Shown piece after piece: positions 23,500 to 60,437 of a stretch of 64,000 bases of DNA; the stretch's first letter is position 1; each line of letters starts with the position of its first letter. Location of the stretch: the NCBI GenBank assembly GCA_947465645.1, contig CANIBQ010000016.1:10732-74731 (forward strand), read 5' to 3'. Under the pieces are notes generated by a model. It was not told the DNA's origin and ran no database searches. It was given only the letters and a program-made list of their open reading frames with translations. The DNA is from Acidobacteriota bacterium (GTDB taxonomy: Bacteria; Acidobacteriota; Vicinamibacteria; Vicinamibacterales; UBA2999). The position numbers and the translations under genes were made by a program.

Positions 23500-24222
23500 T
23501 TACGCGTGCGCCTGCGCTTTGGTCGCCGTGTAGAGATAGACGATCCCGAAGGTCAGCGGGTCTGCTCGAACGTCGGTAAATCCCGCGGCGGTCAGAATAC
23601 CCATAAATTCACGCGGCGGCGGAAATGTGCCGACCGACGCCGGCAGGTACGAGTAGGCCGCGTTGTGCCCGGAGACCGCGCGGCCGATTCTCGGCAGCAC
23701 GTGCGTGAAGTACCACAGGTAGAACGCGCTCAGGCCGGGAATGCGCGGGACGCCGAATTCGAGAATCGCGAGCCGGCCGCCCGGCCGCAGCGTCCGCGCC
23801 ATCTCGGCGCAGGCCACCTCGGGACGCTGGACGTTGCGGATTCCGAACGCCACGGTCACCGCATCTGCACTCCCGTCGCGCGCGGGCAGCCGCATCGCAT
23901 CCCCCCGAATGAGCGTGATGCGGCTCGCTTCCCCCGCGGCTTCGATTTTGCGCTGCCCGAGCGACAGCATGCCCCCCGCGAAATCCACACCCACCACGCG
24001 CGCCGCGCCATCCGTCCGCGCCTGTAGCGCCACATCGGCCGTGCCGGTGCAGACGTCGAGTAACGTTTCGCGGCCCGTGAGATGAAGCGAACGAATGGCC
24101 CGCGCACGCCAGCGCTTGTCGATTCCCGCGCTCAGGACGCGATTGAGCAGGTCATACCGCGGCGCGATCGCGTCGAACATGCCGGCGATACGATCCGGGG
24201 TCTTGTCTGGAGCGGTTTTCAT
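23500..24222 (-). CDS. menG: demethylmenaquinone methyltransferase (UbiE/MenG family)
   Basis: A 240-residue SAM methyltransferase for the last C-methylation of menaquinone. It starts MKTAPDKTPDRIAGMFDAIAPRYDLLNRVLS, the standard UbiE/MenG N-terminus. SAM motif I is LLDVCTGTADVALQA near 51-65. Later come AVTVAFGIRNV near 118 and LRPGGRLAILEFGVPR near 143, followed by NAAYSYLPASVGTFPPPREF, the family C-terminal signature. The start overlaps the mqnP stop as ATGA. Since the operon encodes futalosine-pathway enzymes, menaquinone and not ubiquinone is the probable product. Confidence 0.93.
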   Translation of the reverse strand: MKTAPDKTPDRIAGMFDAIAPRYDLLNRVLSAGIDKRWRARAIRSLHLTGRETLLDVCTGTADVALQARTDGAARVVGVDFAGGMLSLGQRKIEAAGEASRITLIRGDAMRLPARDGSADAVTVAFGIRNVQRPEVACAEMARTLRPGGRLAILEFGVPRIPGLSAFYLWYFTHVLPRIGRAVSGHNAAYSYLPASVGTFPPPREFMGILTAAGFTDVRADPLTFGIVYLYTATKAQAHA

Positions 24223-25070
24223 CCCAGGTAGAGCGACAGTGCGGTGGCCGCGAAATAGACGATCCCCACATAACCATTCAGATCGAACGCCCGCTTGACC
24301 TGCGACAGATCGTCGGCGCTGACCAGCGACTGTTCGTACACGAGCAGGCACGCGACAAACGCGACGCCCACGAGGTACGGCGACGGCAGGTCGGCCGCCC
24401 GCCAGAGGGCGACCATGGCGACGATCGTCGCCACGTGCATCACACGTGAGAGGACGATGGCGTTGCGGACGCCGAAGCGGGTGGGGATGGAACGCAGGCC
24501 CTGGCCGAGATCGAAGTCGACGTCCTGGCACGCGTACAGGATGTCGAAGCCGCCTACCCACAACCCGATCGCCAGACCCAGCAGCCACGGCTCGGCGCCC
24601 GCTCCCCCGCCCGCCGCCAGCCATCCGCCGACGGGCGCGACGGCCATCGCCAGACCGAGAAAGAACTGCGTGAACGCCGTGTACCGCTTGGCCAGCGAAT
24701 ACCAGAAGATGATCCCGAGGGCCACCGGCGACAGCAGGAAGCAGATCGTGTTGAGCCATGAGGCGGCCAGCACGAACACGGCCGACGAGATCGCCACGAA
24801 CACGCCCGCCTCGGTGGTGGTCATCGCGCCGCGCGGCAGCTCGCGCATGGCGGTGCGCGGGTTCAGGGCGTCGTGCCTGGCGTCGACCAGCCGGTTGAAG
24901 CCCATCGCCGCACTGCGCGCGCTGACCATGCAGACGACGACCCAGACGATCTGCATCCAGGCAAAGGGATGATCGCGCCAGGCCAGCAGCGCCCCCGTCA
25001 ACGCAAACGGCAGCGCGAAGACAGAGTGGCTGAAGCGGACGAATGAGAGATACGTGGTCAGCTTACGCAT
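24219..25070 (-). CDS. mqnP: UbiA-type polyprenyltransferase, probably MqnP
   Basis: A 283-residue integral membrane prenyltransferase with about eight TM helices that would attach the polyprenyl tail. Both aspartate motifs are present: NRLVDARHDALNPRTA (first, near 58) and DILYACQDVDFDLGQGLRSIPTRFG (second, near 178-200). The start at 25070 (MRKLTTYLSFVRFSHSVFALPFA) fits UbiA/MqnP N-termini; an upstream frame antisenses mqnX. Family members act on 4-hydroxybenzoate (UbiA) or 1,4-dihydroxy-6-naphthoate (MqnP). The context with mqnA, mqnC and mqnX favours MqnP. Confidence 0.85.
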   Translation of the reverse strand: MRKLTTYLSFVRFSHSVFALPFALTGALLAWRDHPFAWMQIVWVVVCMVSARSAAMGFNRLVDARHDALNPRTAMRELPRGAMTTTEAGVFVAISSAVFVLAASWLNTICFLLSPVALGIIFWYSLAKRYTAFTQFFLGLAMAVAPVGGWLAAGGGAGAEPWLLGLAIGLWVGGFDILYACQDVDFDLGQGLRSIPTRFGVRNAIVLSRVMHVATIVAMVALWRAADLPSPYLVGVAFVACLLVYEQSLVSADDLSQVKRAFDLNGYVGIVYFAATALSLYLG

Positions 25071-26271
25071 GATCGAGCCAGCGGATTGCCCCGGGTTCGA
25101 TGCCGGTGAGCAGGTATTCTTCCACATCGCTGACGCCGTTCGGCACCTGGACGGCGATGAGCGACGCGCGCTTCCCTGGCTCGATCGTCCCGAAGTCGCG
25201 TTCGAACCCGAGCGCCCTGGCGCCGCACAGCGTCGCACTCTCGAGCAGCGTGCGCGCCGAGACACGCGGCGCCAGCCGGCGCGCATGAGCGAGCTCCGAA
25301 AACATGTTGAGATCCTGCACGCTGGCCAGGCTGTCGGTGCCGAATGCGACGCTGACATCCATCGCGTAGAACGACTCGATCGGGGGATCGCCGACGCCGA
25401 CGTACGTGTTGCTTCGAGGACACGAGACGACCGTCACGCCCAGCGACCGCAGCGTGGCCAGGTCGTCACCGGAGAACTGCACGCCGTGCACGACGACCAC
25501 GCGTGAATCGAGGAAGCCCAGATCCGCGAGATACTCGACCGGCGAGCCCCCCGGGGGCGTCCACTCATCGGTCCAGACGCCGAACTCCTCGAGCAGCGTG
25601 CGCCACGGCCCCCCGCCATGCTCGAGAAACTCGAGCTCCTCGGACGACTCGCCGAGGTGAACCGTCGACAGGCCGGCCGTGTCGTTTTCCAGGTCGGTGC
25701 GTATGGCTGAAAACAGGCCCGGCGACACCGAATATGGCGCGTGGGGGGCAAGGCTGACTCGGACGGAGTCATCAGCGCCTGCTGTCTCGCGCGCCTGTGC
25801 GCGCGCATCCTCGACGCGCTTCTGCGGATCGGGGGTATTGAAGCCGACCAGCTCGTAAAAGACGTGGGCGGCCAGGCCCGCGTCGCGCAGCAGCGGAACG
25901 GTCACGAGCGTGTTGCTCACATCGCCGACCAGGCCGGTACCCGTCGCCCTGGCTTCGTCGATTCCGGCCAGCGCCGCGCGAATGATGCGCGGATCGGACG
26001 GGTCGGGATACTGCCGGCGCGCCGCCATCAGCACCCGGATCCAGTTGGTGAAGCGCGTGGACGGCGGAACGACGTCGCGCAGATACGAGAGCTCGAGGTG
26101 CGTGTGGGCGTTGACGAGCGACGGCAGGATCACGGCCCGGCCAAGGTCAACGGCGTCCGCCGCCGGACCGGTTCCGACCTCAACGATGCGGTCGCCCTCC
26201 AGCGCCACCCATCCACCGCGGATCGGGTCATCCGCGATCGGCAGCAGCCAATCAGCTCGGTAACGAATCAA
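25063..26271 (-). CDS. mqnX: amidohydrolase, probably aminodeoxyfutalosine deaminase
   Basis: A 402-residue zinc amidohydrolase of the SAH/MTA deaminase group. It starts with TTG at 26271, one base after the mqnC stop (LIRYRADWLLPIADDPI). Metal ligands are NAHTHLEL near 58, HLGESSEE (His) near 203 and VVHGVQFSGDDL (His) near 265, with GTDSLASVQDLNMF (Asp) near 311. PHAPYSVS is typical of deaminases of adenosine-like substrates. Position in the futalosine cluster indicates aminofutalosine deamination (MqnX). The family also includes other purine deaminases, so the exact substrate is inferred from context. Confidence 0.85.
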   Translation of the reverse strand: MIRYRADWLLPIADDPIRGGWVALEGDRIVEVGTGPAADAVDLGRAVILPSLVNAHTHLELSYLRDVVPPSTRFTNWIRVLMAARRQYPDPSDPRIIRAALAGIDEARATGTGLVGDVSNTLVTVPLLRDAGLAAHVFYELVGFNTPDPQKRVEDARAQARETAGADDSVRVSLAPHAPYSVSPGLFSAIRTDLENDTAGLSTVHLGESSEELEFLEHGGGPWRTLLEEFGVWTDEWTPPGGSPVEYLADLGFLDSRVVVVHGVQFSGDDLATLRSLGVTVVSCPRSNTYVGVGDPPIESFYAMDVSVAFGTDSLASVQDLNMFSELAHARRLAPRVSARTLLESATLCGARALGFERDFGTIEPGKRASLIAVQVPNGVSDVEEYLLTGIEPGAIRWLDHA

Positions 26272-26272
26272 T

Positions 26273-27478
26273 TTATTGGGCGAGCCGGAGCTGCTTGCCC
26301 TGGCGGCTGCGCGCGGGGTAGTTGCGGAGCTCCTCTGGTACGGAGGTGTCGCCATCCTCGCGCGCCGTCGCGAGCGACAGCATGCGCGGCACGTCGCGCT
26401 CGCGGAAGATCGGGTCGCCCAGCACCTCGTAGTGCATGTTGCGGCGTTTCGCGGTGAAGCCGGCGTCCTCGATGTTGACGACAATCTCCACTTCGTCCAT
26501 GCAGTAGCTGGCGCCGGCGGCGCGGACGACGTTCTCCTCGATCATCACGCTGCCCATGTCGTTGGCGCCGTACGCGAGGCTGAGCTGACCCACCTTGCCC
26601 CCCTGGGTCACCCACGACGCCTGCAGGTTGTCGAAGTTGTCGAGCACGATACGCGCGAGCGCCAGCGTGCGGAGGTAATCGACGCCGGTCGCTTCATACC
26701 CGCCGCGCTCGGTGTGGTCCGGCTGATAGCTCCAGGTGATGAATGCCGTGAAGCCGCCGGTCTCGTCCTGCAGGTCGCGAAGCCGCATCATGTGCTCGAT
26801 GCGCTCCTCGTCGGTCTCCACGGTGCCGTACATCATCGTCGCCGTGGTCCGCAGTCCGGCGAGATGCGCCTGGCGCATGACGCCGAGCCATTCGTCTGAC
26901 GAGGCCTTGCCGTAGCAGTTCAGCAGCTTGCGGACGCGGTCCACGAGGATCTCCGCGCCGCCCCCCGGGATGCTGTCGAGCCCGGCGGCCACCAGGCGCT
27001 CGATCACCGTCGGTACGGGAACCTGGTTGATCCTGGAGATGTGCAGCACTTCAGGCGGCGAGAGCGCGTGGAGCTTGAACTCCGGATACCTGGATTTGAC
27101 CAGGCGGAAGAGATCCTCGTACCACGCGATCGGCAGATCCGGGTTGTGCCCGCCCTGCAGAAGCAACTGGTTGCCGCCCACGGCGATCGTCTCGTCGATC
27201 TTCGCCAGGATCTCGTCGAACCCGAGCACGTAGCCCTCGCTGGATCCGACAGCGCGATAGAACGCGCAGAAATTGCAGCGCGCGACGCAGACGTTCGTGT
27301 AGTTGACGTTGCGATCGATGATGTAGGTGACGACGCGATCCGGGTGCTTGCGCGCACGTATGCCGTCGGCCAGCGCGCCCAGCAGGTGCGTCGGCGCCGC
27401 GCGATACAACGCGAGCGCCTCGTCCGCACTCACGCGTCCGCCCTGCTCCACCTTTGCGGCGATCTGGTCGATCATCAT
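26273..27478 (-). CDS. mqnC: cyclic dehypoxanthine futalosine synthase MqnC
   Basis: A 401-residue radical SAM enzyme that closes dehypoxanthine futalosine to the cyclic form in menaquinone synthesis. The cluster motif is intact: NYTNVCVARCNFCAFYRAVG near 59-78, CX3CX2C. Other family landmarks are LLLQGGHNPDLPIAWYEDLF near 110, HALSPPEVLHI near 143, GLDSIPGGGAEILVDRVR near 168, and ENVVRAAGASYCMDEVEIV near 320. Length and motifs fit MqnC better than MqnE. Its start shares one base with the mqnA stop. Confidence 0.93.
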   Translation of the reverse strand: MMIDQIAAKVEQGGRVSADEALALYRAAPTHLLGALADGIRARKHPDRVVTYIIDRNVNYTNVCVARCNFCAFYRAVGSSEGYVLGFDEILAKIDETIAVGGNQLLLQGGHNPDLPIAWYEDLFRLVKSRYPEFKLHALSPPEVLHISRINQVPVPTVIERLVAAGLDSIPGGGAEILVDRVRKLLNCYGKASSDEWLGVMRQAHLAGLRTTATMMYGTVETDEERIEHMMRLRDLQDETGGFTAFITWSYQPDHTERGGYEATGVDYLRTLALARIVLDNFDNLQASWVTQGGKVGQLSLAYGANDMGSVMIEENVVRAAGASYCMDEVEIVVNIEDAGFTAKRRNMHYEVLGDPIFRERDVPRMLSLATAREDGDTSVPEELRNYPARSRQGKQLRLAQ

Positions 27479-28272
27479 CAGAAGAATTCCAGCCGGCGTT
27501 TGCGCGGGGCGAGACCGAGGTCCGCAGCGTAATCCAGGAACATCTGCAGGCCAGCCGCCTCCTCGGGGCCGAGGCCGTATTTCACATTATCCCTTAGATA
27601 CGCGGCGGCCCTGGCGACGGCCGCAGGGTCTCCGCGGCCGTACTCCGCCGCGATGGCGTCGGTCGCCGCCACGCCGTGAGCCTGCGCATCCTGGAGCGCG
27701 CGGACGCCGTCGGCGTCGATGGCGCCGGGACTTCCCGTCCACGCGGCAAATACAAACGGCAGCCCGGTCATGGCGACCCACTCCTCGCCGAGATCGATCT
27801 TCTGAAGGCCCAGCGAAGCGGGATCGGCCTCGAGCGCCGGATCGCCGATCAGTACCGCGGCGTCATGGTCGCGCGTCATCGCCGCCAGATCGGGCTCGTG
27901 CGCCACGAACTCCGGCTCGATGCGATACCGGTGGCGCGCCAGCACCTTGATCAGCGTGACCGACGTGCGGGAGCTGGTGTCGAGAGCAATCCGCCTGATC
28001 GACTCGATCGGGACGCGTGTGAAGAGGGCGACCGATGCGACCGGTCCCCGCGCGCCGATGCCCACGCCCGGCACGAAGCGGTAGTCAGGCGACTGCAGAT
28101 ATTCAATCGATGGGACGAGGCCCAGGTCGATCTCCCCCCGCTGGAGCCGCGCCGCGCAGACGGAGGGGACGTCGTACCGGACGTCCCAGCGCTCTGGCGC
28201 GCGGGCGAGCGCCCACGTCAGCGGACGCGCGTTGAGGTACCCGACGGCGCCGAGACGGAGGCGTCGCATCAC
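27478..28272 (-). CDS. mqnA: chorismate dehydratase MqnA
   Basis: A 264-residue periplasmic-binding-protein-fold enzyme that converts chorismate to 3-enolpyruvyl-benzoate, the entry step of the futalosine route. It starts RLRLGAVGYLNARPLTWAL, typical of MqnA/MqnD. It continues with the QRGEIDLGLVPSIEYLQ segment (about 46-62) and DTSSRTSVTLIKVLA near 94. LPFVFAAWTG near 165 is the conserved dimer/active-site strand. MqnD is the sister family; the N-terminus and length (about 260) favour MqnA. It overlaps the upstream MqnE-like gene by four bases. Confidence 0.9.
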   Translation of the reverse strand: MMRRLRLGAVGYLNARPLTWALARAPERWDVRYDVPSVCAARLQRGEIDLGLVPSIEYLQSPDYRFVPGVGIGARGPVASVALFTRVPIESIRRIALDTSSRTSVTLIKVLARHRYRIEPEFVAHEPDLAAMTRDHDAAVLIGDPALEADPASLGLQKIDLGEEWVAMTGLPFVFAAWTGSPGAIDADGVRALQDAQAHGVAATDAIAAEYGRGDPAAVARAAAYLRDNVKYGLGPEEAAGLQMFLDYAADLGLAPRKRRLEFF

Positions 28273-29162
28273 GCGACAAGGGTGAAGTGGCCGTCGCGCT
28301 CGGCCGGCGACAATCCAGCGGCTTCGATGTTGCGTCGAATCTCTTCGAGCGGGGCGCGCCGGTGGCCGTCGGGCGCCTCGTCTGAGGCGGGGACGCCGTC
28401 AAGGTCGTCGGCGCCAAAAGTCAGGGCCACCTGCGCGAGCTTGGGGCCGTAACGCGGCCAATCGACCTGGACCGAGGGAATATTCGGCGCCGCGAGCCGC
28501 GCCAGGGCCACCATCTTCACGTCTTCGTACCCGGTGGTCGGCCGAAACGTCTGGAGGGCGGTCGGCAACGGATCGATGGCCTGAATCGCCGCGAACTTCT
28601 CCTGCAGCTCGGCGGCGCGCAGCAGCAACGGGACGCGGTCGGCCGCCGGAGCCTTGTTCACGGACAGGCGGATGCGCTCGAAGCCAGCTGCAACCAGGTG
28701 ACCGAGCGCGCCTTCGATGTCTGCGACACGGTCGAGCGGCAGTTCGGCGACTGACGCAAGGCCGCGCGCTCGGAGCTCTTCGAGCACATGGGCGACTGAA
28801 CGCTCCGCTCCGAAGCGCTCGATATCCAGCCACGAGAAACCCGACACCGTACGCTCCCCCGCCACCGCCTTTGCATTCTGCACCGCCGCCAGAGCGACGG
28901 CCAGGCTGTCTGGCGCGCCAGTGATGCGGACTTCCCGCGCGGTGGGCGGCACGGCGTCGGCGAACGACTTGTCGAACGCGCAGGCCGCCACGCGCAGGTA
29001 GGTCACCTGCGTGCCGTGGAGTCGCCGACGCACCGCATCGGCGAGCATGCCAAGCGGCAGGATGTCCGGCGTCGTGGCGAGCTGGGTGATGTCGTCGGCC
29101 AACAGCCGCTCTCCAGCGGCCACGCGCGCCATCAGGGAATCAAACATTGCCGATGTGCTCAT
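28269..29162 (-). CDS. MqnE/MqnC-like protein without radical-SAM cysteines
   Basis: A 297-residue protein clearly related to aminofutalosine synthase at both ends. N-terminal RVAAGERLLADDITQLATTP and LADAVRRRLHGTQVTYLRV match the start of MqnE. C-terminal TTGYEDVKMVALARLAAPNIPSVQVDWPRYGPKLAQVAL, FGADDLDGV and EIRRNIEAAGLSPAERDGHF match its end. The CX3CX2C cluster motif expected after TYLRV is absent; only one Cys (AACAF) remains, and the protein is about 80 residues shorter than normal MqnE. It therefore should not make a 4Fe-4S radical centre. It is in frame, overlaps both neighbours by four bases, and has normal codon use, so it is maintained. A scaffold or regulatory role, or a lost activity supplied by another mqnE, is possible. 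Confidence 0.75.
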   Translation of the reverse strand: MSTSAMFDSLMARVAAGERLLADDITQLATTPDILPLGMLADAVRRRLHGTQVTYLRVAACAFDKSFADAVPPTAREVRITGAPDSLAVALAAVQNAKAVAGERTVSGFSWLDIERFGAERSVAHVLEELRARGLASVAELPLDRVADIEGALGHLVAAGFERIRLSVNKAPAADRVPLLLRAAELQEKFAAIQAIDPLPTALQTFRPTTGYEDVKMVALARLAAPNIPSVQVDWPRYGPKLAQVALTFGADDLDGVPASDEAPDGHRRAPLEEIRRNIEAAGLSPAERDGHFTLVA

Positions 29163-30100
29163 TGGGGTTGCTTCGCGATCAGATCGGCCACCTGCGTCGC
29201 CAGTGCAAGCGCCGCTCGGCCGTCATGTCCGGTCACGCCGGGTTGTCGCCCCGATCGTACTGCGTCGGCGAAATCCGCCAGCTCCCGGCGCAGCGGCTCC
29301 TCGTTGGGCACGTCCAGGCGTCCACCCTGGATCGCCGGGCGTCCGCCCTCCTGGGGAATCAGCCGATAGACCTCGACCTCCTGGGCGGCGTAGTCGATCG
29401 ACACGTAGGCATCACGCGAAAAGAACCGCGCCTTGCGGACGCGGTCGCGGCTGATGCGGCTCGCGGTGACGTTGGCGATGCAGCCGGACGCGAATCTGAT
29501 GCGCGCATTCGCGATATCTACCCGTGGCGTGAGGACATTGACGCCGACGGCATCGATGGTGACGACGTCGGATCCGGCGACGGTCAGCAGCAGATCCAGG
29601 TCGTGAATCATCAGGTCGAAGATGACATCGATGTCGAGGCTGCGCTCGGGGAAGGTGCCAAGGCGATGGATCTCGACAAAGCGGGGACTGGTCACAAGCG
29701 GCAGCGCTGCGGCCACCGCCGGGTTGAACCGTTCGGTATGACCCGTCGCCACGATCGTGCCCCGCCGTGCCGCCGCCTCGAGCAGGCGGTCCGCCTCTTC
29801 CAGCCCTACTGCGAGCGGCTTCTCGATGAGCACCGCCACTCCCGCCTCGACAAAGGGCATGGCGATGTCGATGTGGGTCACGGTCGGCGTGGCAATTGTC
29901 ACCGCGTCGACGTGACCGACCAGGTCGGCGGCATTCGCGAACGCCGGTGCGCCGTATTTGTCGGCAATCTCCTTCGCACGGGAGGCATTGATGTCCACGA
30001 TGCCGGCAAGGTGGACGTGGTCGAGCCCCGCCAGCAGCCGCGCGTGGTGCTGCCCAAGGTGCCCGACGCCGATGACCGCGATTCGGACCGGCGCGCTCAC
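29159..30100 (-). CDS. Gfo/Idh/MocA family oxidoreductase
   Basis: A 313-residue NAD(P)-dependent dehydrogenase. The Rossmann motif is [18 protein letters not shown] near 9-26, then [15 protein letters not shown] and [18 protein letters not shown] near 93-110, with the conserved EKP Lys. [13 protein letters not shown] near 118 is typical of sugar-nucleotide members encoded beside lpx genes. The family's neighbours here (lpxI, lpxA) suggest a sugar-nucleotide substrate, for example a UDP-GlcNAc 3-dehydrogenase such as GnnA, but no aminotransferase partner is present. Overlaps of four bases on both sides show co-translation. Confidence 0.85.
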
Positions 30101-30915
30101 TGCGCCCGCCCCACAACTGTAATGTTGGCGTCGTTGGCCGCGGCTATCACCGCCTCGCCATCGATCAGCAGCGCACGGCCGGCGTCAACCGACAGCGCCG
30201 AGGCGCCGGCGTCTCGCATCGCCTTGATGGTCGCGACGCCAATCACCGGCACGTCGAAGCGCATGTCCTGCTTCGGCTTGGCCACCTTGACGACGCGGGT
30301 GTCGGGCCCGGCGAGGCGGCCGGCGCGGGCGATGACTTCGTCGGTGCCCTCCATGGCTTCCACGGCAACCACGGCCTGCTGCTTCACGACGATCGTCTGG
30401 CCGATGTCGAGGCCGGCGATGACATCGGCCATCCGGTAGCCGAACTCGAAATCCTTCTGCTCGTCGTCGGACGGCGCACGCCTGGTCAGCACTCCTCCCC
30501 TGGCGAGCAGCGGCTGAAGCAGGGCCGTCGAATTCATCAGCTCGATGCCGCGGTCCCTGAGGACGTTGGCCACCGCGCCGATGAGGCCGTCGGTGTTCCT
30601 CGAGGCCAGCTTCGTCAGCACGCTGAGAAACGTCAGGTCGGGGACGATCCCGCCCGAGAAGATCTTGGTGTGCTTGACCTGGCCGGCCATGACCGCGTGG
30701 CTCACGCCCGCATCCTTGAGGAGGCTGATGCAGGTGCCGAGCTGGCCAAGCGAAATCCAGTGGATTGCGGAGTGGTGACGCGCCGCGGCTTCGTTCAGCT
30801 CGGGAAAGGTCTCTTCCCTGGTGGCGATGATCGTGACGTCATGGCCCTGCGCCCGCGCGGCATCGAGCACGAGAAACGGAAAGCGGCCATTCCCGGCGAT
30901 GAGCCCGAGCTTCAT
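30097..30915 (-). CDS. lpxI: UDP-2,3-diacylglucosamine pyrophosphatase LpxI
   Basis: A 272-residue LpxI (formerly DUF1009), which hydrolyses UDP-2,3-diacylglucosamine to lipid X in lipid A synthesis in bacteria without LpxH. It starts [21 protein letters not shown], the canonical N-terminus, and carries [15 protein letters not shown] near 76-90. Further on are [22 protein letters not shown] near 124 and the [24 protein letters not shown] segment (about 175-200). The C-terminal [32 protein letters not shown] is well conserved. It lies directly downstream of lpxA. Confidence 0.95.
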
Positions 30916-48853: not shown

Positions 48854-50003
48854 CCATCCTCGTCAATCACGTCTGTCCCTTTCTGTCCTCATCCTCGCGC
48901 TCGGCTCGGCGATGACCCTTGTCGCGTGCAACAGCGCCGAGCCAACCGCGGTTGCCGCAGCGCCGGTCACTGAACGTCTTGTGGACGTCCCGGCGATCAC
49001 GGTGGGCGTCGCGGATCTGGAGTCCACCCTTCAAGTCTCCGGCAACCTCGCGCCGCAGACGCGCGTCGCCATCATGGCCAGGCTCCCGGGCACGCTCTCT
49101 CGGATGTCGGTCCAGGTCGGGGATCGCGTGCGCCAGGGACAGACGGTGGCGACGCTCGACCGCCGCGAGATCGATGCGCAGGTGGATGCGGCCAAAGCCG
49201 CGGTCGCCGTGACTCACGCGGCGCTCGAGTCTGCCGAAGCGGCGCTCGCCAACGCGGTGCTCGAGCAGGAACGCTCGAAGAATCTGTTCGAAAAGGGAGC
49301 ACTGCCCCGCCAGCGCCTTGATGCCGCGGATACGGCGGTGCGCGCGTCGACGGCTCAGCGCGAACTTGCCAGGGCCAACGTGGCACAGGCGGAGGCGGCC
49401 TGGCGCCGAGCCAGCGAAGTGCAGCGCGACACCACGCTCACCTCCCCGATCAACGGCGTCATCGTCGAGCGGAACTACGACGCAGGAAGCCTGGTCGGCC
49501 CAGGGGAGAAGCCCGTCGTCGTCGTGGCGGACCTGAGCATCATGAAGCTTGAAGCGGGCGTCTCGGAGCTCGAGGCCGGCCGTCTCCGCGTCGGCATGCC
49601 CGCGCGCATCGTCGCGCAGGCCCTTCCCGACGAGGTCTTCGAGGGACGCCTGGCCAGCATCGCCCCCGAGGTCGATCCGCGCAACCGGCACTTCGCCGTC
49701 GAGGTACGGACGACCAATCGCGGAAACCTCCTCTCGGGGATGTACGGCACCGCCACGATTCCGCTCGAGCGGGCGGCGAAGGCGGTGGCCGTACCGCGCG
49801 ACGCGGTCACGACGCGAGGCGGCACACGTGTGGCGCTCCGGATTGACGGAGCCACCGTCCGGGAAGTGCCCGTGGTCGAGGGCTTGACGAGCGGAACGCT
49901 CGTCGAGATTTCAAGCGGGTTGAAAAGCGGCGACACCATCATCTCCGATGCCCGGCGCGATGTCGCGGCCGGCAGCAGGGTCAACCCCGTTTTCGCACGC
50001 TAG
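48840..50003 (+). CDS. RND efflux periplasmic adaptor (membrane fusion protein)
   Basis: A 387-residue AcrA-type adaptor. A lipoprotein signal (SLSVLILALGSAMTLVACNS, lipidated Cys near 30) would anchor it in the inner membrane. The lipoyl/hairpin parts run from VAIMARLPGTLSRMSVQVGDRVRQGQTVATLD (first lipoyl half, about 78-109) through a coiled coil (AAKAAVAVTHAALESAEAALANAVLEQERSKNLF) to the second half, TSPINGVIVERNYDAGSLVG. The beta-barrel and membrane-proximal domains complete it. It begins inside the tetR end by 14 bases and is five bases from the RND start, so the three are one operon. Confidence 0.94.
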   Translation: MNMRSHPRQSRLSLSVLILALGSAMTLVACNSAEPTAVAAAPVTERLVDVPAITVGVADLESTLQVSGNLAPQTRVAIMARLPGTLSRMSVQVGDRVRQGQTVATLDRREIDAQVDAAKAAVAVTHAALESAEAALANAVLEQERSKNLFEKGALPRQRLDAADTAVRASTAQRELARANVAQAEAAWRRASEVQRDTTLTSPINGVIVERNYDAGSLVGPGEKPVVVVADLSIMKLEAGVSELEAGRLRVGMPARIVAQALPDEVFEGRLASIAPEVDPRNRHFAVEVRTTNRGNLLSGMYGTATIPLERAAKAVAVPRDAVTTRGGTRVALRIDGATVREVPVVEGLTSGTLVEISSGLKSGDTIISDARRDVAAGSRVNPVFAR

Positions 50004-50007
50004 CCAT

Positions 50008-53000
50008 ATGTGGATTTCCGATACCTCCATCCGCCGGCCCGTCTTCGCGACGATGGTCATCGTCAGCTTCATGGTGCTTGGCATCGTGTCGATGACCCGG
50101 CTCGGGATCGACCTGTTCCCCGACGTCAGCTTCCCCTTCGTCAACATCAGCGTCGTCTATCCCGGTGCATCGCCGGAGGAAGTGGAGACGCTGGTCACCA
50201 GGCCGATTGAAGACGCGGTCGCCGGCATCAACGGCGTCAAGCGCGTGCAGTCGAGCTCCACCGAATCGCTGTCGATGATCGGCGTCGAGCTTCGGCTCGA
50301 AGTGGACGCGCAGAACGCGGCCGCCGAAGTGCGCGAAAAGGTGGCCGCCATCCGCCGCCGTCTGCCGCGCGAGGTGGAAGACCCGACGATCGTCCGCTTC
50401 GATGTCGCCGGCCTGCCGATCATGACGTTCGCGGTCGGGTCGTCACAGGCGTCCGACGTCACCCGCAGGCAGATCGAAGACGACCTCAAGCCGCTCATCG
50501 AACAGATCGACGGCGTCGCGGCGGTCGAGGTCAACGGCGGCGACGTGCGCGAGATCCAGGTGGACCTCGATCCCCGCCGGCTGGAGGCGCTGGGACTGCC
50601 GGTCAGCCTGGTGGCCGAGAAGCTCTCGGCCGAGAATCTCGACCTGCCCGGCGGCCGGATGACACAACAGGGGCAGACAATTTCGCTGCGAACGAAGGGG
50701 GAATTCGAATCCGCCGCGGAGATCGAAAGCGTCATCCTGCGGTCGGATGGCGGCTCGACCGTTCGCGTTCGTGACGTGGGGCGCGTGATCGACGGCTACG
50801 AGGAGCGGACGTCGACGACGCGCCTCGACGGTGCCGACGCCGTCTCGTTCTCGATCAAGAAGCAAAGCGGCGCGAACACCGCCGCCATCGCAGAACGTGT
50901 ACAGGATCTGCTCACGCGCGTCCGTCCGAACTTCCCGGCGCTGCAAATCCGCGACGTGCACGACGACGCCGTGTTCATTCACGAAAACGTGGCGCAGGTC
51001 CGCGAGGCGATCATCTTCGGCGGGCTGATGGCCGTCCTGGTGATCTTCCTGTTCATGCGCGACTGGCGCTCGACTCTCATCAGCGCACTCGCGCTGCCGA
51101 CCTCGGTGGTGGCGACGTTCTTCTTCATGTATATCGCCGGCTTCACCTTCAACATGATGACGCTGATGGGGCTGTCGCTCGTCATCGGCATCCTGATCGA
51201 CGATGCCGTCGTGGTGCGGGAAAGCATCTACCGTCACATGGAGCAGGGCGCCGACCCGATGACCGCGGCGCACAAGGGCACGTCCGAAGTCGGACTTGCC
51301 GTGATGGCGACCACCTTCACCATCCTCGCGGTGTTCCTGCCGGTGGGCTTCATGACCGGGCTCGTCGGCCAGTTCTTCAAGTCATTCGCGCTGACGATTG
51401 CCTTCGCGGTGGCGATGTCGCTGCTGGTCGCGTTCACGCTCGACCCGATGCTCTCGTCGCGGTTCGTCCGCTACATTCCACCCGAGGAGCGGATGCGGAC
51501 GCGCACCGGGCGGCTGTTCGAGCGATGGGGACGCGCGTACGAGGCGCTCGATCGGAAGTATCACGCCGTTCTCGGCTGGGCGCTCGGCAATCCCTGGAAG
51601 ACGCTGGGGGCCGCCGCGGCGATCTTCGTGGCCAGTCTCAGCACGATCACGCTGATGGGCACCGAATTCGTCCCGGTTGAAGACCGCGGCGAATTCCAAG
51701 TCATCGTCGAGATGCCGCCGGGCACGTCGTTCGACGAGAGCGTGGCCGCGGTGTCGCGGATTGAGAAGGACGTGCAGGCGATTCCCGAGGTCACGCAGGT
51801 CTTCAGCACGGTCGGCATCGGCGGCCAGGTCCGGTCGTCCACGATTCGAGTGAAGACGACGAAGAAGAACGAGCGCAGCCGCGGGATCGGCGAGATCAAG
51901 ACGGACATGCGCGCCAGGCTTGCCTCGATGCCGTTTGTCGACGGCAAGGTCGCGGATCCCGAGTTCATGCAGGGCGCTCCCTACGAGCCGCCGATCAACA
52001 TCTTCGTGCGCGGAGACGATCTGGCGGCGCTGCAGCGGATCACCAGTCAGGTCGAAGCGAAGGTGCGCCAGATTCCCGGCGCCGTGGACATCAGCACGAA
52101 CCTCGAGACGGGACAGCCCGAAGTGGTGGCGCGCATCAACCGCTCGATCGCCGCCGACATGGGCTTCAGCGTGGGCGGCGTGGCCAGCCAGCTCCGCGGG
52201 ATGGTCGAGGGCGTGGTGCCGACGAAGCTGCGCGACGGCAATCGCGAGCATGACATCCGCGTGCGCCTCGCGCCGGAGTACCGCAACGACCCGGCCGCGA
52301 TCCTCCGGACGCCGTTGTATTCGGACACCGGCACGGCCGTGCGCACCGGCGACGTCGTCCAGTTCACTCCGGCCGTGGGCCCCAGCAACATCGACCGCGA
52401 ACAGCGGCGCCGGCAGGCGAAGATCGGCGTCGATCTCGGCGACAGCTATGCCCTTGGCGACATGACCGCTGAAGTCGAGAAGGCGATGGCCACGATTCAG
52501 ATGCCGCAGAACTTCGAATGGGGCTTCGCCGGCGACGTGGAGATGATGCAGGAATCCGCGGCCGCCATGGGTCTCGCAATGATTCTGGCGATCGCCTTCA
52601 TCTACATCGTGCTGGCCTCGCAGTTCGAGTCGTTTCTCGAGCCGCTCATCATCATGCTGTCGATGCCGCTGGCACTGGTAGGGGCGCTGCTGCTCCTGCT
52701 GGGCACCGGCAAGCACCTTGGCATGCCGGCGATGATTGGCGTGGTGATGCTCATGGGCCTGGTCACGAAGAACGCGATCCTGCTGATCGACTACACCAAC
52801 AGGCTTCGCCGGGAACAGGGGCTGGGCGTTCGCGAGGCGCTGCTCGCCGCCGGGCCGGTACGGTTGCGGCCGATCATGATGACGACGGTGGCGATGGTGC
52901 TGGGCATGCTGCCATCGGCGCTCGGCACCGGTGACGGCAGCGAGTTCCGCGCGCCGATCGCGATTGCCACGATCGGCGGCCTGATCACCTCGACGCTGCT

Positions 53001-54510
53001 CACGCTCGTGGTGATACCGGTGGCGTATCTCCTCCTCGAGGGCGCGGTCGAGCGCGTCAAGGCGTGGCGGGCGGCTCCCTCGCCGGCGTGGACGCGCACG
53101 GCCGCCCGCGTGACCGGGGTGCTCGTGATCCTCGCGCTCCTCGGCGCGTTCGTCAGCGTCGCCGGCGCGTTCGCGTCGGACGCGGGGGCTGAAGCCCCCG
53201 CGCTACAGGTCCAGAGTGCAGGCCCCATCCCGGACGTTGCAGCGCGTGGGCTTCAGCCCACGCCGCCCGCACCACCGCTCACGATCGAGCGGGCGCTGCC
53301 GCTCGCCTCGACCCGCAATGAATCGTTCAAGGTCAGCCAGGAGCGGCTGCGCGAGAGCCAGGCGAACGTCATGGCGGCGAAGGCGGCATTCCTGCCATCG
53401 CTGAACCTGAACTTCCTCTATACGCCGTCGCAGGCGTCACCCCTGCTGAAGATTCCTGCCGGCGTGTTCGGCCCGACCGAACAGACGTTCCGTGCGAACT
53501 TCGTGCGCGAGAACATCGTCAGCCTCGACATCTCGCAGCCGCTCTACACTGGCGGGCGATTGAACAACGCCTACGGTGCGCAGGCGGCGACGCAGGAGGC
53601 CACCCGTCTTGACCTCGAACGGGTGCAGCAGGCACTGACGCTACGCGTCTACGAGACGTTCTACGCCGCGCTGATGAACGACCAGGGGATCCGCGTCACG
53701 GAGGAGGGCGTGCGGATTGCCGAACGTCACCTCGAGCTCGCGAAGGTGCGGTTCGACGCGGGCTCTGCGGCTCGCCTGGACGTGCTTCGCGCGGAGGTCG
53801 AGCTCGCCAACGCGCGGACGAAGCTGATTCGCGCGCGAAGCGCCGCCACCGTGTCATACCAGGCGCTGCGAACCGTCCTCTCCCTGCCGCAGTCGGAACC
53901 CCTGCAACTGGCTGGCACGCTCGACCAGGTGCCCGCGCTGCCTGCGGTCCCAACGCTCGAAGACGCGCTGGTGGCGCGCGCCGACATCCGCGCCATGGGC
54001 CAGCAGCGTGAGGCAGCACAGCGGATGGTGTCGCTCGCGAACGCGGACCTCAAGCCGACGGTCGCCTTCAGGGGTAACTTTCAGTACCAGGAGGACGGCT
54101 TCAACACCCTCCTGAACAACAACAACCGCAGCTACCAGTTCGGCGTGGCCGTCAGCGTTCCGCTCTTCAATGCACCGACCGTAGCGGCCAGGCGCGGCGC
54201 CGCCTCGGCGCGCGTGAAGCAAGCCGAACACGGCGCGACCGCGGCGCTCGATGGGGCGCGGCTCGAGCTGGCGTCGGCCTCGACCGAGCTAGGCGCGGCT
54301 GTCGAGATCGTCTCTACCCAGGTGAAGGCGGTGGAAATGGCGCGCGAGGGACTCTCGATCGCGGAGGTCTCCTACGAGAACGGCGTCATCACGTCGACGG
54401 AGCTCAACGACGCCCGCCTGTCACTGCTCGAAACCGAGTGGGAACTGATGCAGGCCAAGTACGGACAGATCGTGGCCGCAGCCCGAACCCGATACGCGGC
54501 GGGTCTCTGA
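50008..54510 (+). CDS. RND efflux permease fused to TolC outer-membrane channel
   Basis: A 1500-residue single chain. Residues 1 to about 1020 form a full HAE1-type RND pump: first TM (RPVFATMVIVSFMVLGIV), two porter halves, and TM4 with the proton-relay Asp pair in VIGILIDDAVVVRES. TM10 carries the conserved Lys in MGLVTKNAILLIDY, and the permease ends LVVIPVAYLLLEGAVERVK. A hydrophobic segment (VTGVLVILALLGAFVSVAGAFA, about 1035-1056) then a short linker lead to a TolC-like channel (about 1090-1500). TolC signatures are ERLRESQANVMAAKAAFLPSLN, SLDISQPLYTGGRLNNAYGAQ, FDAGSAARLDVLRAEVELANART and VSYENGVITSTELNDARLSLL. The frame is continuous, without a stop. The extra TM would place the TolC part in the periplasm. 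The linker is encoded by two palindromic repeats. Confidence 0.92.
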   Translation: MWISDTSIRRPVFATMVIVSFMVLGIVSMTRLGIDLFPDVSFPFVNISVVYPGASPEEVETLVTRPIEDAVAGINGVKRVQSSSTESLSMIGVELRLEVDAQNAAAEVREKVAAIRRRLPREVEDPTIVRFDVAGLPIMTFAVGSSQASDVTRRQIEDDLKPLIEQIDGVAAVEVNGGDVREIQVDLDPRRLEALGLPVSLVAEKLSAENLDLPGGRMTQQGQTISLRTKGEFESAAEIESVILRSDGGSTVRVRDVGRVIDGYEERTSTTRLDGADAVSFSIKKQSGANTAAIAERVQDLLTRVRPNFPALQIRDVHDDAVFIHENVAQVREAIIFGGLMAVLVIFLFMRDWRSTLISALALPTSVVATFFFMYIAGFTFNMMTLMGLSLVIGILIDDAVVVRESIYRHMEQGADPMTAAHKGTSEVGLAVMATTFTILAVFLPVGFMTGLVGQFFKSFALTIAFAVAMSLLVAFTLDPMLSSRFVRYIPPEERMRTRTGRLFERWGRAYEALDRKYHAVLGWALGNPWKTLGAAAAIFVASLSTITLMGTEFVPVEDRGEFQVIVEMPPGTSFDESVAAVSRIEKDVQAIPEVTQVFSTVGIGGQVRSSTIRVKTTKKNERSRGIGEIKTDMRARLASMPFVDGKVADPEFMQGAPYEPPINIFVRGDDLAALQRITSQVEAKVRQIPGAVDISTNLETGQPEVVARINRSIAADMGFSVGGVASQLRGMVEGVVPTKLRDGNREHDIRVRLAPEYRNDPAAILRTPLYSDTGTAVRTGDVVQFTPAVGPSNIDREQRRRQAKIGVDLGDSYALGDMTAEVEKAMATIQMPQNFEWGFAGDVEMMQESAAAMGLAMILAIAFIYIVLASQFESFLEPLIIMLSMPLALVGALLLLLGTGKHLGMPAMIGVVMLMGLVTKNAILLIDYTNRLRREQGLGVREALLAAGPVRLRPIMMTTVAMVLGMLPSALGTGDGSEFRAPIAIATIGGLITSTLLTLVVIPVAYLLLEGAVERVKAWRAAPSPAWTRTAARVTGVLVILALLGAFVSVAGAFASDAGAEAPALQVQSAGPIPDVAARGLQPTPPAPPLTIERALPLASTRNESFKVSQERLRESQANVMAAKAAFLPSLNLNFLYTPSQASPLLKIPAGVFGPTEQTFRANFVRENIVSLDISQPLYTGGRLNNAYGAQAATQEATRLDLERVQQALTLRVYETFYAALMNDQGIRVTEEGVRIAERHLELAKVRFDAGSAARLDVLRAEVELANARTKLIRARSAATVSYQALRTVLSLPQSEPLQLAGTLDQVPALPAVPTLEDALVARADIRAMGQQREAAQRMVSLANADLKPTVAFRGNFQYQEDGFNTLLNNNNRSYQFGVAVSVPLFNAPTVAARRGAASARVKQAEHGATAALDGARLELASASTELGAAVEIVSTQVKAVEMAREGLSIAEVSYENGVITSTELNDARLSLLETEWELMQAKYGQIVAAARTRYAAGL
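53182..53263. repeat. two REP-like palindromes in the RND-TolC linker
   Basis: GCGGGGGCT-gaa-AGCCCCCGC-type stem at 53182-53201 and GCGTGGGCT-tc-AGCCCACGC-type stem at 53244-53263. They encode the linker residues around GAEAPALQ and ARGLQPTPP. The first shares GGGGCTGAAGCCCCCGCGCTAC with the element at 9803-9820. Confidence 0.75.
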
Positions 54511-59174: not shown

Positions 59175-60437
59175 TTACAACACCTGCTCGACGTGTCTCC
59201 TGCCGTCCTTCTCGCGGATGTAGCCGGCCGCGACGAACGGATCGTGCTCGAAGAAGATCAGGTGCTCGCCGTCAATCGCCTCGCGGATGACGCGCTTCTT
59301 CACCGCCAGCGTCTGCATCGGGAAGAGGTCGTAGCCCATGATCCACGGGTCGTGGATGTGGCCGGTCGTGGGAATCAGGTCGGCGGCAAAGACTGCGGTC
59401 TTGCCGCCTGACTCGATGTAGACAATCTGATGCTGACCGGTGTGGCCGCCGGTCCGCTCCACGCGCACGCCCGGCTTCACCACGCCGTCGTCTTCGTAGA
59501 AATCGACGACGCCCGCGCTCTTCAGCGGCAGGAAGTCGTCCGGCAGATAACTCGCGCGGTTGCGCTCGTGAGGATGCGTCGCATCCTCCCACTCCGCGGC
59601 TCGAATCAGGTATCGCGCGTTGCCGAAGCGCGGAACGATCGCCGCGCCATCGCGCCTGGTCGCCCCGCCGAAATGATCGAAGTGCAGGTGCGTGGCGAGC
59701 GCGAGGTCGATTGAGGCGGCCGACAGCCCGGCATCGGCGAGCGAGTGATCCAGATGCCGGGTTCGGTCGAAGGCGTAGATGTCGATCTGCCTGGCGTCCC
59801 ACTTGTCGCCGGCTCCGCAGTCGATGATCATCCGGCCCCACGGTCCTTCGACAACCAGCGGCCGCATGGCGAGCTGGATCCGGTTGCGGTCGTCCGGCGC
59901 GGTCTTCTTTTCCCAGAGCGGGCGCGGCACGACGCCGAACATGGCGCCGCCGTCGAGCCTGAACAGGCCGTCGTGGACGCTGACCAACTGGAGGTCGCCC
60001 CACGGCAGCCGCTTCGACGACAGATCAGGGCGCGCCCGCGCGCGCTCCTTCAGCTCGACGAGCACGCCGTGGGCCGCCGACGGGTGAATGAACGCCACGA
60101 GTGCGCCTTCGGCTCCGGGCCTCGGTTCATCGTCCACCAACCGGACGCCGCGCTCTTTCAGTTGTGCCAGCGCGGCGCGAATGTCTTCGACGCGAAGGGT
60201 GATGTGATGGATCCCTGGGCCGCGCTTCTCGATGTACCTGGCAATCGCCGAGTCGGGAGCCGTCGCTTCGAGCAGCTCGATGGCCGACTGGCCGACGGGA
60301 ACGAAATGCGCCCGGACCCGCTGCGATGGCACGTCCTCAGGCGCCTCGACTTCGAGCCCCAGGGCGTCCCGATAGAACGCGAGCGCCGCGTCGATGTCGC
60401 GAACCGCGATGCCGACGTGGTCGAGGATCGCTCTCAT
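59175..60437 (-). CDS. methylmalonyl-CoA epimerase fused to an MBL-fold hydrolase
   Basis: A 420-residue two-domain protein. Residues 1-134 are a methylmalonyl-CoA epimerase (glyoxalase fold): LDHVGIAVRDIDAALAFYRDALGLE with the first His, PGIHHITLRVEDIRAAL with the second, and HGVLVELKE with the Glu ligand. Residues about 145-420 are a metallo-beta-lactamase-fold hydrolase: ATHLHFDHFGGA (HxHxDH near 229), GGHTGQHQIVYIE (His near 314), AADLIPTTGHI (Asp near 334) and FEHDP. No linker stop or frame break is seen. It overlaps meaB as ATGA. The epimerase fits propionyl-CoA metabolism with MeaB; the MBL part could be a thioesterase, which is inference. Confidence 0.92.
   Translation of the reverse strand: MRAILDHVGIAVRDIDAALAFYRDALGLEVEAPEDVPSQRVRAHFVPVGQSAIELLEATAPDSAIARYIEKRGPGIHHITLRVEDIRAALAQLKERGVRLVDDEPRPGAEGALVAFIHPSAAHGVLVELKERARARPDLSSKRLPWGDLQLVSVHDGLFRLDGGAMFGVVPRPLWEKKTAPDDRNRIQLAMRPLVVEGPWGRMIIDCGAGDKWDARQIDIYAFDRTRHLDHSLADAGLSAASIDLALATHLHFDHFGGATRRDGAAIVPRFGNARYLIRAAEWEDATHPHERNRASYLPDDFLPLKSAGVVDFYEDDGVVKPGVRVERTGGHTGQHQIVYIESGGKTAVFAADLIPTTGHIHDPWIMGYDLFPMQTLAVKKRVIREAIDGEHLIFFEHDPFVAAGYIREKDGRRHVEQVL

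Follow-up and report, generated by a model that had tools for sequence, protein, structure and literature searches.

An MqnE-like protein without the radical-SAM cluster is conserved immediately before mqnA in an acidobacterial menaquinone operon

Here we describe X, our working name for a cluster-less MqnE-like protein encoded in a menaquinone operon of an Acidobacteriota bacterium, at 28269..29162 on the minus strand of the 64,000-nucleotide stretch that was analysed (the window: assembly GCA_947465645.1, contig CANIBQ010000016.1, positions 10,732 to 74,731). X lacks the CX3CX2C motif of radical S-adenosylmethionine (SAM) enzymes, is under purifying selection, and is found in most genomes of its class, most of which also encode a canonical MqnE. 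It probably performs another, non-radical job in the menaquinone pathway. That X is a radical-SAM pseudoenzyme, derived from the operon's own mqnE and serving as a non-radical partner of MqnA, is a reading for which we consider the chances about even.

Sequence and predicted fold of X

The gene and its most informative segments are as follows, with conservation counted over an alignment of 62 family members:

28269..29162, minus strand: X, cluster-less MqnE-like candidate pseudoenzyme, 297 residues, open reading frame from ATG to TGA
28977..29012, minus strand: strand beta1, residues 51-62, holding the only Cys, C61 (alignment and DSSP)
28458..28469, minus strand: Q232-V-D234-W235, where beta7 ends; Q is kept in 61, D in 58 and W in 62 of 62 (alignment)
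28356..28367, minus strand: G266-x-R268-R269, in the loop that follows beta8; G266, R268 and R269 invariant, 62/62 (alignment)

The initial annotation had reported that the radical-SAM motif is gone and that one Cys is left, and both statements are borne out: C61 is the single Cys in 297 residues. It had also raised the possibility of a frameshift hiding the motif. This can be ruled out, because CX3CX2C is absent from all three minus-strand frames of 28201-29300 and the examined relatives agree. A four-base overlap with both neighbours had been claimed as well; this stands for the upstream oxidoreductase frame (29159-30100), and on the mqnA side the overlap depends on which start mqnA uses, being four bases with the GTG at 28272 and one base with the adjoining ATG.

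Both terminal blocks had been called clearly MqnE-like. For the C-terminal block this holds, with CofH_C (PF19288) matching residues 208-293 (E 4e-8; 33.5 bits against a gathering score of 27). The N-terminal block is weak when compared one to one with solved MqnE (3.9 bits, single-sequence comparison); the X family profile, on the other hand, aligns with a canonical MqnE over nearly its whole length (positions 8-299 of 300, E 4e-37). The Radical_SAM profile (PF04055) has no match in X, and other Pfam matches, such as DUF3240, were below cut-off and were disregarded. Against the NCBIfam models of MqnE (TIGR03700) and MqnC (TIGR03699), X scores 73.4 and 67.7 bits, far below the respective cut-offs of 434.55 and 428.1.

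The predicted structure of X retains the radical-SAM type barrel fold. In alignment with canonical MqnE, three segments are missing: the cluster loop and first barrel helix that should follow beta1 (~45 residues), the PGGGAE loop together with residues beyond it, and a few positions in the last loop. X cannot bind the SAM cluster in the known manner.

Conservation and selection

A protein database search with X returned 3143 proteins at E <=1e-3 among 7998 scored candidates (more existed), a set that may include canonical MqnE and MqnC. All 120 listed homologues, which are up to 91% identical to the window's X, are free of CX3CX2C and 286-304 residues long, so the cluster-less form asked after in the initial annotation is indeed conserved in relatives. 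Public annotation labels several X homologues aminodeoxyfutalosine synthase or ThiH; pathway reconstructions may therefore count a cluster-less protein as the enzyme.

The 62-row alignment was assembled from a 51-row set (13 loci duplicating others excluded) by removing L016 and L032 and adding 13 of the 120 listed proteins. CofH_C matches 62/62 rows and Radical_SAM none (E <=0.01); CX3CX2C occurs in 0/62. There are 16 invariant columns, which include D214, W235, R268 and R269. W235 is common to X and MqnE, and R268 and R269 are absent from the MqnE rows compared. The position of Cys61 is variable (C in 23, V in 27 of 62). In the predicted structure, charged conserved residues lie in strand-end loops: R268/R269 follow beta8, D234 closes beta7 and D144 follows beta4.

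Selection was assessed by the ratio of nonsynonymous to synonymous divergence (dN/dS). Between the window and locus L001, from the closest relative with a genome (G001; X 83% identical, MqnC 94% over its available part), dN/dS is 0.135 for X, 0.135 for mqnA and 0.07 for mqnC. Eleven pairs were chosen for X, and the four with dS >1 were excluded from the ranges: the remaining seven give 0.10-0.32 for X, and the same pairs give 0.08-0.24 for mqnA (six pairs) and 0.04-0.16 for mqnC. X is thus constrained, yet looser than mqnC. A decaying pseudogene is rejected on dN/dS and uniform length, in agreement with the original view that the gene is in frame, 297 residues long and maintained. As a separate observation, the L001 record is titled Candidatus Sulfopaludibacter and those of some X relatives Vicinamibacteria or Vicinamibacterales; it is possibly a mislabelled metagenome-assembled genome.

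Operon context

The gene order at X is lpxA-lpxI-GFO-X-mqnA-mqnC-deaminase-ubiA-ubiE, and the neighbours are:

30097..30915, minus strand: lpxI, upstream neighbour in most related loci (Pfam)
29159..30100, minus strand: GFO/IDH/MocA oxidoreductase, upstream, with the four-base overlap with X (Pfam)
27478..28272, minus strand: mqnA, chorismate dehydratase family (PF02621, Pfam), directly downstream and overlapping X
26273..27478, minus strand: canonical mqnC with CX3CX2C (TIGR03699, 476.7 bits, cut-off 428.1)
25063..26484, minus strand: amidohydrolase similar to aminofutalosine deaminase (PRK08418, 145.6 bits, short of the cut-off of 320); its true start is probably near 26270
24219..25070, minus strand: UbiA-type prenyltransferase, MqnP-like (listed frame start 25358; chosen start 25070)
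23500..24222, minus strand: UbiE/MenG methyltransferase (listed frame start 24759; chosen start 24222)

X stands immediately before mqnA in 50/50 measured loci, 49 of them with a spacing within -80 to +120 bases and one at 122; one further X locus, outside the 50, ends before mqnA. GFO and X are adjacent in 33/46 loci and mqnA and mqnC in 41/50; truncated or wrongly measured loci account for some of the misses. In G058, mqnA and mqnC apparently form one uninterrupted frame (L061:2357-5077, minus strand), a possible natural MqnA-MqnC fusion.

Two groups in the class, of eleven genomes each, have no X match (0/22). The first, with a high-scoring operonic mqnE, contributed loci from 11/11 genomes, and the second, grouped by score alone, from 4/11. 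Exactly the position of X, before mqnA and mqnC, is taken by a canonical mqnE in 14 of the 15 loci; the fifteenth shows mqnE alone.

We also compared residual evolutionary rates across the operon, a weak test in which 25/41 loci had all eight genes. Covariation with X was reached by few of 500 shuffles for mqnA (1), ubiA (1), the deaminase (1) and mqnC (4), and was not clear for lpxI (43/500), lpxA (63/500) or GFO (166/500).

Distribution of X and canonical MqnE

Distribution was counted over 149 genomes of the class of X. Of these, 112 have X, with a best E of 2.7e-29 or lower, and 132 have an MqnE over the curated cut-off, including 102/112 X genomes. Four of the other ten X genomes have sub-cut-off partial MqnE matches (G001, G078, G093 and G120), G094 has an MqnE fragment bearing the motif and G101 a partial match. 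The initial annotation had called for a search for a canonical mqnE elsewhere in the genome: for the window's own genome its presence is inferred from these relatives, the nearest of which, G001, has a canonical mqnE with CVASCLFC, which is cut by the end of its contig and lies ~4 kb from an mqnD-type gene. That X replaces a missing MqnE is thus rejected.

In 20 X genomes inspected, no mqnA or mqnC lies beside the canonical mqnE within the DNA examined. In four genomes (G132, G118, G104 and G043) it is at most ~11 kb from mqnB and a second PF02621 gene, taken as mqnD. MqnE of this second-locus type also occurs where X has no match (G046, G054, G083, G092, G099, G107, G109 and G124) or only a 57-residue fragment (G103). 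The mqnA-mqnC piece hits a contig end in G046, G107 and G109, and five of the eight X-less genomes have a single match to the MqnE model, hence no mqnC match, so none of them shows true loss of X. Six of the 149 (G033, G080, G090, G106, G114 and G140) have no match to X, MqnE or PF02621.

At least two PF02621 matches (MqnA and presumably MqnD) are found in 104/112 X genomes and 126/149 overall, and an over-cut-off MqnB in 41/112 and 44/149. Some of the 71 X genomes without an over-cut-off MqnB have diverged or split matches beside the second PF02621 gene. X as replacement of a missing MqnB or MqnD was accordingly set aside, with the MqnB side not fully closed. Split or diverged MqnB matches of this kind, as in G085, G058 and G120 among others, suggest that the class may use a variant futalosine hydrolase.

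Across the phylum, 297 genomes were sampled with at most seven candidates scored per genome, and X occurred at E <1e-90 in 30, all of them already in the class set; the next-best match to the X profile (E 4e-37) is a canonical MqnE. One of the 30, from G039, was marked with an internal TGA, which we take as the gene's own stop because the profile match overruns the stop-free class-search match by a few bases.

Origin of X

Trees were built on subsets of 84 and 49 rows. They place X as a single clade (support 100) whose long stem joins between MqnC and all MqnE, and the best unrooted 49-row tree has a branch (95/83) with X and MqnC together on one side. Approximately unbiased (AU) tests weakly rejected a grouping of X with second-locus MqnE (p 0.030) and rejected neither X with operonic MqnE (p 0.153) nor X with a third group (p 0.122). 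Together with synteny, these results favour descent of X from the operon's own mqnE, a descent that the long branch leaves unproved.

A cluster-less relative of MqnC

A second case, which we call Y, is a cluster-less MqnC relative of 316-320 residues in nine genomes of another class (G273, G280, G192, G236, G348, G334, G228, G287 and G244), whose genome set has no listed member in common with that of X. The loci discussed here are:

L110:3866-4810, minus strand: an example of Y (Y is also seen in L150-L158)
L140:1453-2706, minus strand: divergent MqnC-like radical-SAM enzyme with CVAQCDYC (also in L141 and L142), in L140 below the MqnC cut-off
L118:3948-5105, plus strand: MqnE-like protein of G302, first motif Cys lost and SCPLC kept, directly before mqnC

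A more distant Y, a 305-residue frame without the motif, occurs in G266, and from its sequence G362 likely carries a further one (54% identity). The Y of G273 and a canonical MqnC from its class share 68% identity over residues 50-315, and the same glycosyltransferase gene lies near 9/9 Y loci and 8/21 canonical mqnC loci. Y is constrained: of seven pairs, four had dS >1 and were excluded, and the three with dS <1 give dN/dS of 0.08-0.10. Its fold is predicted with a mean local confidence (pLDDT) of 86 and a template modelling score (pTM) of 0.88, from an input alignment that was half canonical MqnC. The three genomes checked (G266, G244 and G273) encode a canonical MqnE and the divergent MqnC-like enzyme, which in G273 scores 314.5 bits against the MqnC cut-off of 428.1.

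Y thus resembles X in the loss of the cluster loop and in purifying selection, and has been kept close to the glycosyltransferase gene that also neighbours the canonical mqnC of its relatives. It differs in deriving from MqnC and in having no adjoining mqn gene in the three loci inspected (L108-L110). The two are apparently of independent origin. With G302, in which no MqnE over cut-off was found, these cases suggest that loss of the cluster in a retained MqnE or MqnC barrel has happened more than once, and the parallel loss in an MqnC copy turns a single oddity into a possible pattern. We tentatively propose, as a minority expectation, that cluster-less MqnE/MqnC barrels arise in this phylum repeatedly and under selection: a newcomer radical-SAM copy catalyses, and the old barrel loses its cluster and SAM loops but persists for a non-redox function of the futalosine pathway that the newcomer cannot supply, be it binding and hand-over of an intermediate or a new cofactor-free reaction.

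Possible functions of X

The strict pairing with mqnA, the menaquinone-gene context and the conserved charged residues of the strand-end loops lead us to read X as a partner of MqnA or of its product. The initial annotation had conceived of a pseudoenzyme partner for MqnC or MqnA: a pseudoenzyme is still the best reading, and the pairing fits MqnA. The operon's own mqnE would have lost its cluster once another mqnE copy, the one within ~11 kb of mqnB and mqnD in the four genomes above, took over catalysis. X would then act without radical chemistry. Its remodelled, Arg-containing barrel mouth could bind MqnA and/or its carboxylated product, and X may present that product to the true MqnE or hold the pathway enzymes together.

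Several points weigh against this partnership. The binding of a partner by X is something we infer. The position beside mqnA may merely be inherited from mqnE, and the best trees do not show descent of X from operonic MqnE. With our own assignment of the barrel faces from DSSP, the catalytic face of X is not more conserved than the opposite one (mean 2.18 vs 2.39 bits), so a ligand pocket is not demonstrated. In the rate comparison, lpxA and mqnA, which have no expected link, covary as strongly as X and mqnA (1/500), and mqnA and mqnC, of one pathway, do not covary (474/500). Finally, no MqnE was found in three X carriers (G069, G095 and G117), and a fourth, G147, shows an mqnC piece, a CofGH-like protein and, beyond these, no more than one fragment that was left unassigned.

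X could also be no binding partner at all and have become a new cofactor-independent enzyme (a lyase, isomerase or hydrolase, for example) acting on a futalosine-pathway intermediate, which we think rather unlikely. The predicted barrel carries nearly invariant polar residues (R79, D144, Y212, D214, Q232, D234, K241, R268 and R269), most of which differ from MqnE in the rows compared, and the sequence outside nearly invariant residues changes faster. However, the catalytic face has no excess conservation, and no pathway step is clearly vacant, given the PF02621 and MqnB counts and the nearby mqnC; a vacancy is possible in the 71/112 X genomes with MqnB below cut-off.

It is unlikely that X is a regulatory pseudo-subunit activating or restraining MqnE or MqnC through a heterodimer, in the manner of the trypanosome AdoMetDC prozyme. 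X is retained in genomes with an active paralogue and there is precedent for dead paralogues activating live ones, but X pairs with mqnA and stands apart from the active mqnE.

If X were a relic of the former mqnE, preserved solely because it keeps translation of the operon coupled, that would explain the ancestral mqnE position, the ends overlapping the neighbours and an evolution faster than that of mqnC. We disfavour this reading strongly: the 120/120 homologues of 286-304 residues, the lack of an internal stop in the listed class-search X matches, the dN/dS of 0.10-0.32 and the 16 invariant columns all speak against it.

The cofactor-free aminofutalosine synthase floated in the initial annotation has the operon position and the MqnE-like fold in its favour and is scarcely credible, because 102/112 X genomes hold an over-cut-off MqnE and the G001 copy has CVASCLFC.

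If X is needed, it would show that an MqnE-type barrel can serve a function apart from radical chemistry, and it would open channelling between MqnA and MqnE to direct tests. In the open-licence literature we found no publication describing a cluster-less MqnE or MqnC, and no report of a class-wide cluster-less radical-SAM paralogue in a menaquinone operon.

Other observations in the window

Two further frames outside the operon are of note. Read by eye, the 1520-residue frame at 49948-54510 (plus strand) starts as an RND efflux pump and continues as a TolC-type outer-membrane protein, a possible fusion, and the single frame at 59175-60437 (minus strand) has a glyoxalase/methylmalonyl-CoA epimerase domain ahead of a metallo-beta-lactamase fold domain.

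Comparison with known systems

X shares with MqnE (PDB codes 6xi9 and 6xig; TIGR03700) the predicted barrel, the C-terminal CofH_C region and the place beside mqnA and mqnC that mqnE holds in the operons of related groups. It differs in having no CX3CX2C, no cluster loop and helix (~45 residues) and no PGGGAE loop, and in a shorter C-terminal loop. With MqnC (TIGR03699), encoded two genes downstream, it shares the superfamily fold and the CofH_C region, whereas MqnC retains the cluster; X scores slightly lower against MqnC than against MqnE (67.7 vs 73.4 bits).

Dead paralogues serving a live enzyme are already a known kind: two papers (PMC5201418, PMC3663545) report that in trypanosomes the AdoMetDC prozyme and the DHS paralogue activate a live partner. 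Folds and pathways differ between these and X, and the activating effect reported for them would be hypothetical for X. What they have in common is a catalytically dead paralogue kept with an active one in the same pathway, and among the relatives of the window 102/112 X genomes also encode such a paralogue, an MqnE over cut-off.
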